The notes beneath the pieces were generated by a model. The model did no database searches, was not told the origin of the DNA, and saw only the letters and a list, made by a program, of their open reading frames with translations. A DNA stretch of 64,000 nucleotides. Source: Actinomycetospora succinea. Lineage in GTDB: Bacteria; Actinomycetota; Actinomycetes; Mycobacteriales; Pseudonocardiaceae. Below, piece by piece: positions 2,947 through 59,611 of this stretch (within the stretch, counting starts at the first letter, position 1; each line of letters starts with the position of its first letter). Where the stretch lies: positions 1 to 64,000 of the forward strand of contig NZ_SNYO01000003.1 of the NCBI RefSeq assembly GCF_004363095.1, read 5' to 3'. The translations under genes were made by a program, and so were the position numbers.

Positions 2947-2956
2947 CGCGTCCCCG

Positions 2957-3030
2957 GTACGAGCGATGCGGCATCGCTGGCGTCCAGCACCAGGATCGCC
3001 ACATGCTCGCTGCGCGACACGCCGGAGTGC
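2957..3030 (+). repeat. dispersed 74-bp structured repeat, copy 1
   Basis: About 88% identical to 59166-59240 in the same orientation. It lies in the 114-bp gap between convergent genes. It contains AGCGATG-CGG-CATCGCT (a 7-bp hairpin), and just beyond its end arms GCGCGACAC and GTGTCGCGC bracket about 30 bp. It may act as a bidirectional terminator here. The two-copy match is visible directly; membership of a larger genomic family is inferred. Confidence 0.75.
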
Positions 3031-3060
3031 GCTCGAACGTGCGCTGCGGTGTCGCGCGCC

Positions 3061-4521
3061 TCAGACCGACGTCGGGCGGTGCTGATACCGGCCGGTGGGC
3101 GCCCCCTCGACCTTGCCGTCGGCCCACACGCGCTGCCCGCGCACGAACGTCGCGTCGACGGTCGAGCCGATCTCGAGGCCGCGGAACGGCGTGTACTCCT
3201 GGGTCGACTCCGACTGGGCCGCGTCGACGGTCCACGAGCGGTCGGGGTCGACGAGCACGACGTCGGCGTCGTAGCCCGGTGCGAGGTCGCCCTTGGAGCC
3301 CAGGCCGAAGCGCTGGGCCGGGTTCCACGACGTCAGCGCGGCCACGGCGCCGAGCGGCAGGCCGCGCTTCCGCCCCTCGCCGACGAGTCCCGGCAGCAGG
3401 TACTCGGTGCCGCCGAAGCCCGACTTCGCGGCGAAGATGTCCGCCGGGTCGTCGCCGAACTTCGTCGCCTCCTTGCAGCAGGCGTGGTCGGAGACGACCC
3501 ACGACACCTCGCCGGCGAGCACGTGGCGCCACAGCGCCTCGACGTCCTCGCGCGGGCGCAGCGGCGGGTTGACCTTGCCGCCCACCCCGTCGGCGGTGGA
3601 CACGTCGGCCAACAGGTGCCCGATCGTCACCTCGCGGCGGAAGTCGACGTGCGGGAACGTGCCGGCCATCAGCAGCGCCGCCTCGAGGGCCTTCGCCGAC
3701 GAGAGGTGCAGCAGGTTGATCGTCGGCAGCCCGGTCTCGTGGGCGAGGTACGACGCGATCGTGACCGCGAGCCCCTCGGAGTGCGGCGGGCGCGAGGCGC
3801 TGTAGGCCTCGAGGCCGGTCAGCCTCCCCTCCTGCTCGACGATCCGCGTGTACGCCGTCATGATCTCGGCGGTCTCGCAGTGCAGCGAGAGCGAGATGCG
3901 GTCGGCGATGTCGGGGCGCTGCTCGCGGACGCGCTGGATGCCGCGCATGACGAACTCGAAGTGCGCGATGTCGTAGCGCTCGCCCTCGGGGATCATGAGG
4001 AACGCGTTCTGGTCGTTCGAGCGCCCGTGCAGGCCGTGGCTGCCGTAGAACATGAAGATCTTGAACGACGTGACGCCGTGCTCGTCGACGAGCATCGGGA
4101 TCTCGTCGATGTGCGAGGCCTGCATCGGCGCGAGGTGGAACGCGTAGTCGACGTACGAGCGGCCCTCGGCGGCGGCGAGCACCTCGGGGAACAGGTCGGC
4201 GTAGTCGCCGCCCTTGTTCAGGTAGTACTGCCCCGAGCGCATGTAGGTCAGCGAGGTCGTCACGCCGCCCTGCGCGCAGGCGCGGCTCTCGGTCTCGGCG
4301 TCCTGGGACAGCGGGTTGTAGATGCCCCAGTGCTGGTGGGCGTCGACGACGCCGGGGAAGGCGAGGCGACCGCGACCCTCCTCGACCCGCGCGGCGTCCG
4401 CGCCGAGGTCCGGCCCGACGGCGGTGATGCGCCCGTCGTCGACGGCGATGTCGGCGTGCGCGACCTCCTCGACGCCCGGACGGACGACGCGCACGTCGCG
4501 GATGATCAGGTCGTGGCTCAC
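3061..4521 (-). CDS. hydantoinase/dihydropyrimidinase-like amidohydrolase
   Basis: Metal-dependent cyclic-amide hydrolase of the D-hydantoinase/allantoinase/dihydroorotase superfamily (486 residues). Visible ligands are H62 and H64 in DAHQHWG, a candidate carboxylated Lys154 in TSFKIFMF, H214 in LHCETAE, H272 in HLSS and the catalytic D345 in SDHACC. The KVNPPLRP loop at about 316-323 is typical of the family. The GTG start at 4521 overlaps the stop of the upstream FAD gene by 4 nt (GTGA), so the pair is translationally coupled. The substrate is unknown: hydantoin, dihydropyrimidine or another cyclic imide. The neighbours suggest a catabolic role whose product feeds the divergent CoA-transferase operon. 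Confidence 0.9.
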   Translation of the reverse strand: MSHDLIIRDVRVVRPGVEEVAHADIAVDDGRITAVGPDLGADAARVEEGRGRLAFPGVVDAHQHWGIYNPLSQDAETESRACAQGGVTTSLTYMRSGQYYLNKGGDYADLFPEVLAAAEGRSYVDYAFHLAPMQASHIDEIPMLVDEHGVTSFKIFMFYGSHGLHGRSNDQNAFLMIPEGERYDIAHFEFVMRGIQRVREQRPDIADRISLSLHCETAEIMTAYTRIVEQEGRLTGLEAYSASRPPHSEGLAVTIASYLAHETGLPTINLLHLSSAKALEAALLMAGTFPHVDFRREVTIGHLLADVSTADGVGGKVNPPLRPREDVEALWRHVLAGEVSWVVSDHACCKEATKFGDDPADIFAAKSGFGGTEYLLPGLVGEGRKRGLPLGAVAALTSWNPAQRFGLGSKGDLAPGYDADVVLVDPDRSWTVDAAQSESTQEYTPFRGLEIGSTVDATFVRGQRVWADGKVEGAPTGRYQHRPTSV

Positions 4522-58699: not shown

Positions 58700-59611
58700 T
58701 CACACCGGCCAGACGCCGTCGGCCAGATCGCGGGGCGGCCGACCCAGCAGCTCGCCGAGCCGACCGTGCCGTCGCCTCCCGACGATACGCAGGACCGGCG
58801 TCCGCGCCGCACCCGCCAGGGTCGCGCCGAGCCCCGCGTGACGACTCGCCGTGAGCAGACGGTCACCCGATCCCGGCGCGTCGGGGTCGAGCCCGAGCGT
58901 GTACGCCTTGCCGTCCAGCGCCCCGGCGGCCAGCACCCACAGCCGCAACCGGGGTCCGTCGAGCACGAACCCGTCGGGCACGTGCTTCATTCCCCCGCCG
59001 CAGGTCCAGGCCCTGGCGAGGTCCACCAGATCGGCGCGGAACGCCGTGCGCACCTCCGGTCGCCCGTCCTCGGCACGCCCGACCTCGGCGGGCACCCCGC
59101 GCGCCCGCAGCGCGCAGCACAGGGCCCGCACGCGCCACGTCACGAGGGGGTGGTCGGCCTCCGCCGTGCGAGCGATGCGGCTTCGCTGGCGTCCGACGCC
59201 AGGATCGCCACATGCTCGCTCCGGCGACACGCCGGCGTGCTCGGGGATGTCAGCCCGGCGGCCACGCTCGCGTTGGGTGTCAGGAAATCCGCCGGCTCGC
59301 CCCAGCAGGGCCGCGATCTCGTGGGGGTCGAGGTCGAGGTGGGCGAGCTCGTCCGGGTCGATGTCGGGCACCGGATCGAGGTCGTCGGGGACCGGATCGG
59401 GTTCGGGCGTGTCGTCCGAGGCCTCGGCGTCCCCGTCGTCCTCGTCCTCCTCCTCGGGCTCCGGCTCCGGTTCGGGCCCCAGCACGACCGTCAGCCGCGC
59501 CGCCGAGCCCCGGCCGAAGATCTCCGCGCGCCCCGGCCCGCAGAGCAGCCCCTCGAGATCCGTCAGGGCGCGCGGCAGGGCGTCCGCCGACCAGAACGAC
59601 AGCTGCCCCAC
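58700..59611 (-). CDS. hypothetical actinobacterial protein with acidic linker and repeat insertion
   Basis: A 303-residue protein. The N-terminus (MGQLSFWSADALPRALTDLE) and C-terminal half (VPDGFVLDGPRLRLWVLAAG, then LRIVGRRRHGRLGELLGRPP) look like a conserved actinobacterial family found near topA/hppA. Between them lie a strongly acidic low-complexity stretch (PEPEPEPEEEDEDDGD, then PDPVPDDLDPVPDIDPDEL) and about 25 residues (HAGVSPERACGDPGVGRQRS...) that are the translation of a dispersed DNA repeat. The frame is kept through both. Function unknown. The gene lies 183 bp from topA on the same strand. Confidence 0.75.
   Translation of the reverse strand: MGQLSFWSADALPRALTDLEGLLCGPGRAEIFGRGSAARLTVVLGPEPEPEPEEEDEDDGDAEASDDTPEPDPVPDDLDPVPDIDPDELAHLDLDPHEIAALLGRAGGFPDTQRERGRRADIPEHAGVSPERACGDPGVGRQRSRIARTAEADHPLVTWRVRALCCALRARGVPAEVGRAEDGRPEVRTAFRADLVDLARAWTCGGGMKHVPDGFVLDGPRLRLWVLAAGALDGKAYTLGLDPDAPGSGDRLLTASRHAGLGATLAGAARTPVLRIVGRRRHGRLGELLGRPPRDLADGVWPV
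59166..59240 (+). repeat. dispersed structured repeat, copy 2, inside a coding sequence
   Basis: 75 bp, about 88% identical to 2957-3030 in the same orientation, differing at about nine positions including one indel. It contains GGCGTC-C-GACGCC and CACGCCGGCGTG palindromes. It is read on the opposite strand as an in-frame part of the protein at 58700-59611 (about residues 124-148). Confidence 0.8.

Follow-up and report, generated by a model that had tools for sequence, protein, structure and literature searches.

A dispersed hairpin-forming repeat of Actinomycetospora, mostly found 3′ of genes, very probably also inserted in frame in four genes

Introduction

In the stretch of 64,000 nucleotides of Actinomycetospora succinea DNA analysed here (the window), a repeat that also occurs outside genes lies within a protein-coding gene. 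How does such a sequence come to be read as part of a protein, and has it been put to use there? The earlier note on this DNA had raised the possibility of a non-coding repeat domesticated into a protein, as with the palindromic elements of Rickettsia. Those elements (RPEs) are described as palindromes of 105–146 bp that lie in frame in Rickettsia genes, and one RPE-carrying protein has been demonstrated to be translated and active (PMC2229807). Orthologues of RPE-carrying genes are reported to have inserts at the same site, at times of different groups (PMC3767692), and intragenic REPs have been described in various other bacteria (PMC3733652).

Results

The window gene contains a two-part repeat in an open frame

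The segment 59166–59240 does lie inside an open reading frame of 303 codons, next to an acidic stretch, as had been claimed; the frame reads HAGVSPERACGDPGVGRQRSRIARTA there and is uninterrupted throughout, repeat included (Table 1). The description of the repeat itself has to be revised. What had been taken for a 75-bp sequence is a discrete unit of 69 bp (unit A), since information content falls sharply at both of its ends, and a related unit (unit B) extends the palindromic insert to ∼133 bp (59166–59298), or residues ∼105–149 of the protein in place of a segment of ∼25 residues. Nor is it the second copy of a pair: the fetched parts of its own genome hold 53 copies of unit A. The profile scores 69.5 bits for unit A at this site, and the repeat matches 2948–3014 of the window at 87% over 67 nt.

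Table 1. Positions of the window gene, its parts and the repeat units, with the loci of in-frame copies elsewhere.
Feature	Position or loci	Strand	Basis
Host gene, 303 aa, GTG start	58700..59611	(-)	ORF read; orthologues in 48/61 relatives
Residues 1–44, conserved across genera	59480..59611	(-)	orthologue alignment
Acidic genus-specific linker, residues ∼46–104, differs between species	59300..59476	(-)	orthologue alignment
Domain of residues 155–303, conserved across genera	58703..59149	(-)	orthologue alignment
Repeat unit A, 69 bp, residues ∼127–149, antisense in gene as GVSPERACGDPGVGRQRSRIART	59166..59234	(+)	repeat profile; genome matches
Repeat unit B, antisense in gene as GGFPDTQRERGRRAD	59251..59298	(+)	profile match
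Second unit A copy of the window, classed outside genes	2957..3024	(+)	profile; pairwise match to 2948–3014
FbiC/CofH copies passing the strict test	L177, L203, L220
MftF (mycofactocin glycosyltransferase) copies passing the strict test	L066, L182, L215
GT9 enzyme copies passing the strict test	L052, L191, L217
MftF second-site loci	L243, L247, L251, L252

The host protein matched no family in a search of Pfam and NCBIfam and represents an unannotated family that is present throughout the order; an ORF that we take to be topoisomerase I-like adjoins its gene. An AlphaFold model built from 16 sequences had a mean pLDDT of 71. The insert (residues 105–150) fell below a pLDDT of 50 between better-predicted parts, as did residues 1–9 and 75–80. 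When the model was compared with PDB structures, both matches at E ≤0.001 were WhiA (best 1.4e-4) and LAGLIDADG endonucleases ranked next; TM scores were low (about 0.3 of the query), and we describe the fold as predicted to be WhiA/LAGLIDADG-like. A relation of the domain to WhiA by sequence was not found among PDB sequences, where the best match (E 0.1) was not WhiA, so that the link to WhiA is one of fold alone. A search of Rfam returned two miRNA matches only, both sub-threshold and within the acidic stretch.

In other genera the insert is missing from the orthologues, a comparison that the earlier note had proposed: in 13 of 13 (L026–L038) the first conserved part runs straight into the second, and residues 45–157 are absent. 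The gene is not split, given that residues 1–44 and ∼158–302 are both conserved from genus to genus, share one open frame and lie in one modelled protein. All 17 congeneric orthologues (L009–L025) have an acidic or proline-rich linker; the profile detects repeat DNA in the linker of nine (L009–L017), some weakly, and the remaining eight (L018–L025) have no repeat insert. Four of the nine (L011, L015, L016 and L017) have another copy as well, inversely oriented and closer to the N-terminus. Two of the insert-free orthologues (L024 and L025, from genomes G013 and G015) have a different segment in the linker, DRPKGPFARND or DRPKGPLAQND, which is possibly repeat-derived.

The repeat is dispersed in one part of the genus and lies chiefly 3′ of genes

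Searching the genome of the window (G000) with the 75-base query returned 41 matches including itself (E 5.6e-33 to 4.5e-10), and the consensus query returned 43, with 40 of 89 candidates scored. The profile detected 173 copies of unit A in loci fetched from eight genomes; the loci were mostly fetched for holding a copy, and the counts of unit A are therefore lower bounds and not densities. Unit A begins GT(G/A/T)C and ends CGCCG; information drops from ∼1.9 to 0.2 bits on leaving it at the right and climbs from ∼0.2 to 1.5 bits on entering it from the left, with no conserved bases outside the ends and no long terminal inverted repeats seen. The related unit B often follows 1–40 nt after unit A. 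In three loci (L041, L043 and L065), downstream of A copies, another palindrome-like sequence, CCGCGGCACG...GCTGCCGCGCCGGAGGC, splits unit B between its two hairpins.

As single-stranded DNA the A consensus folds with a z-score of −3.6. Covariation did not bear out a single long hairpin, for which 84.9% of positions were paired against 85.1% in shuffles (84 of 128 distinct 69-bp copies). Read as two hairpins, unit A gave 31 doubly changed cells where shuffles gave 4.3, 29 of the 31 coming from one column pair, and covariation is thus weakly supportive of hairpin folding.

By crude gene calls, 15 of the 173 A copies lie inside a gene and 157 are flanked by a gene on either side; in 112 of these 157 the left gene reads towards the copy, which begins a median of 18 nt past the stop codon, and 70 lie between convergent genes.

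Unit A has matches in 14 of 18 congeneric genomes. There are more than 40 in each of G000, G006, G011 and G012, 30 weak ones in G015 (best E 1e-8), and none or one in each of G001, G003, G007, G010, G013, G014 and G016. Unit B has matches in 10 of the 18. Across the family, with three candidates scored per genome, 20 of 297 genomes match unit A, 14 of them the congeners; each of the six others has one weak partial match (E 2.3e-4 to 9.9e-4). This dispersed repeat family belongs to one part of Actinomycetospora, a genus of soil bacteria. No support emerged for its carriage on plasmids or viruses, in that plasmids held no match to unit A and viral contigs, searched with one exact 22-base pattern, held none either. 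The RAYT/IS200-type transposase domain (Y1_Tnp, PF01797) was absent from all 18 congeners and present in 5 of 14 control genomes; mobilisation by an enzyme of this type was accordingly rejected, and RAYT-driven movement is unlikely, at least now.

Three further genes carry the repeat in frame

We applied a strict in-gene test, in which the same frame had to be coding-like on both sides of a copy with no stop across the repeat. It was passed by 10 of the 173 A copies, located in the window gene, FbiC/CofH, MftF and a GT9 enzyme. MftF passes its NCBIfam cut-off and the GT9 enzyme its Pfam cut-off. The partial FbiC query exceeds the Pfam cut-off for CofH_C and falls below the NCBIfam ones.

The FbiC insert is found in 10 of 18 congeneric genomes and that at MftF site 1 in 9 of 17, and the DNA profile (A or B) confirms 9 of the 10 and 8 of the 9, respectively, some weakly. 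By DNA profile the GT9 insert is present in 8 of 16; G008 has extra residues without a profile match, and seven have no insert. The insert-free congeners form an identical set at the window gene, FbiC, MftF site 1 and GT9. FbiC from other genera had no insert in 22 of 22 aligned loci (58 of 60 family genomes had an FbiC match). The FbiC copies measure 68 bp, and the residues between fixed flanks vary from 15 to 61 by species with the frame kept; the length of the unit, put at 75 bp in the earlier note, thus does not account for the frame. In G004 the FbiC insert (L235) is extended, in frame, by a short tandem peptide repeat, GRAADDT.

Three frames are used: antisense in the window gene, FbiC and MftF site 2, sense in MftF site 1, and another sense frame in GT9. 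Of the six frames in which the A consensus can be read, five are free of stops and one holds a stop. A second site in MftF contains antisense A units in G011 and G012, and repeat-looking segments in G001, G003, G007 and G015, which have none of the other inserts. Unit A also lies apparently in frame near the end of a CoxG-like protein (L152, ∼2996–3064) and C-terminally in a CoA-ligase-like protein (L070, 2996–3064), as does unit B in a possible membrane protein (L056, 3269–3318). These three, and copies near the start of fbiC (L055, L177), are left out of the supported in-frame cases, which are those with orthologues compared.

Unit type varies by species, and coding copies resemble intergenic ones

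A tree built from conserved columns places the eight congeners that lack inserts in one supported clade (100/96). The branch joining the ten insert-bearing congeners has support of only 44/95, and a single origin of the inserts is for this reason compatible with the tree and not firm. Presence of the repeat and presence of the inserts are not fully matched, in that G015 has its weaker unit A matches yet none of the inserts at the window gene, FbiC, MftF site 1 or GT9.

The unit type at one site varies among species, being A, B or A+B. The one intergenic site compared between species holds A+B in G000, A in G006 and B in G005. At first sight A. lutea (G011) offered a clean empty site there; it holds a remnant of B, and no clean empty site with a target duplication was found at this site. 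An ancestral composite that was later lost in part would account for the mixture of A, B and A+B seen at FbiC and MftF site 1.

Of 16 coding A copies set against the intergenic copies of four genomes, 10 were on average nearest to those from their own genome, compared with 4.7 expected when species were shuffled within loci (p=0.004; copies inside called genes were removed from the intergenic set), and the other six run opposite. For 11 of the 16, the coding orthologues were more distant than the intergenic copies from the same genome. C at column 20 occurs in 24 of 38 intergenic copies in G012, 0 of 45 in G000, 1 of 40 in G011 and 2 of 14 in G006, and in three of five coding copies of G012 and none of the 11 others. 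The pattern suggests conversion or re-insertion between coding and intergenic copies.

Discussion

A dispersed hairpin-forming repeat that lies mostly 3′ of genes has, very probably, also been inserted in frame in four genes, where it is tolerated as an extra segment. The repeat (A of ∼69 bp, often with the related B) resides chiefly a short way 3′ of genes. Among the ancestors of the repeat-rich species it probably also entered the WhiA-like gene, fbiC, mftF and the GT9 gene at points where an extra 20–50 residues can be tolerated, presumably as an A+B composite from which A or B was later lost. Each insert would be read in whichever frame it landed; we infer that the inserts are translated and nearly neutral. 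The insert would probably add a floppy extra segment to each host protein, predicted in the window protein to be disordered and to leave the host fold undisturbed. The likeliest course is that a selfish or neutral repeat persists inside a gene only if the frame remains open and the protein can accommodate a flexible segment, and sequence may since have been exchanged between coding and intergenic copies.

Domestication in the stricter sense, in which the peptide encoded by the repeat, or the mRNA hairpin, is useful and maintained by selection for that reason, is improbable. The same sites are kept in the insert-bearing species at several genes, as such selection would predict, but A, B or A+B occupies one site depending on the species, the one protein modelled is predicted to be disordered at the insert, and three reading frames mean that the peptides are unrelated. 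The proposal of the earlier note therefore holds as far as a non-coding repeat lying in frame, in the window gene and in FbiC, MftF and GT9 as well; its implied usefulness is not borne out, given the predicted disorder, the varying unit type and the sufficiency of tolerance to explain the data.

It is less probable still that the genes are broken by frameshift or truncation, or that the insert is removed from RNA or protein in the manner of an intron or intein. Hairpin-forming DNA might invite such a reading; against it, the frame is open at every counted site and conserved residues flank the insert on either side, a picture repeated in several genes and species, and inserts of ∼20–50 residues are far smaller than inteins and introns. 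That an ordinary GC-rich linker resembles the repeat by chance or composition can be practically dismissed: the adjoining acidic linker is indeed of low complexity and variable among congeners, but the 75-base query has many distant matches at E below 1e-17, the profile score at the site is 69.5 bits, and the segment is absent from eight congeners and 13 orthologues of other genera.

We consider tolerated in-frame insertion to be RPE-like in arrangement, an analogy that is supported by three findings: the repeat is dispersed and hairpin-capable, it lies in frame in unrelated proteins, and orthologues carry inserts at the same locus that are lacking in outgroups, with the exception of MftF site 2. 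RPEs are likewise described as palindromic, both intergenic and in frame in unrelated conserved proteins, with same-site inserts in orthologues that sometimes belong to another group and with exposed or flexible positions predicted (PMC2229807, PMC3767692, PMC10969869). Unlike RPEs, the Actinomycetospora repeat inhabits a GC-rich free-living actinobacterium, its units are of ∼69 and ∼50 bp with composites of ∼130–150 bp, and few of the fetched A copies passed the in-gene test. REPs, which carry GTAG or CGTC tags, are also reported to lie mostly 3′ of genes or between convergent genes, often as dimers and in some cases in frame (PMC3733652), whereas the ends of unit A carry neither tag in their profiles and, unlike a REPtron, the repeat is accompanied by no RAYT-type transposase gene in the 18 congeners. 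Bacterial MITEs with open frames (ERIC, Correia/NEMIS) are similarly small, non-autonomous and able to fuse with genes in frame (PMC2229807); here, neither a target duplication nor a parent transposon was recognised, nor were long terminal inverted repeats. In the open-licence literature, which leaves out most subscription papers, we found no account of such elements from any actinobacterium, Actinomycetospora included, and the main text of PMC3733652 contains no mention of actino, mycobacter, streptomyces or frankia. By that literature the kind is known, as RPEs and intragenic REPs, and the Actinomycetospora family seems to be undescribed.

The repeat segments of these unrelated proteins might even evolve in concert, being overwritten from the non-coding pool by gene conversion or same-site re-insertion, an idea that we put forward tentatively, at rather less than even chances. 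If it is true, parts of FbiC, MftF, the GT9 enzyme and the WhiA-like protein would shift together toward each species' repeat type. Rickettsia is the best-known setting for in-frame palindromic inserts; Actinomycetospora, a GC-rich, free-living actinobacterium, adds a rich example, with inserts in well-defined cofactor genes (F420 and mycofactocin). It allows one to ask how inserts originate without a RAYT, how proteins tolerate them, and whether coding and non-coding copies exchange sequence; and because FbiC can be assayed, the cost or benefit of an insert would be measurable.
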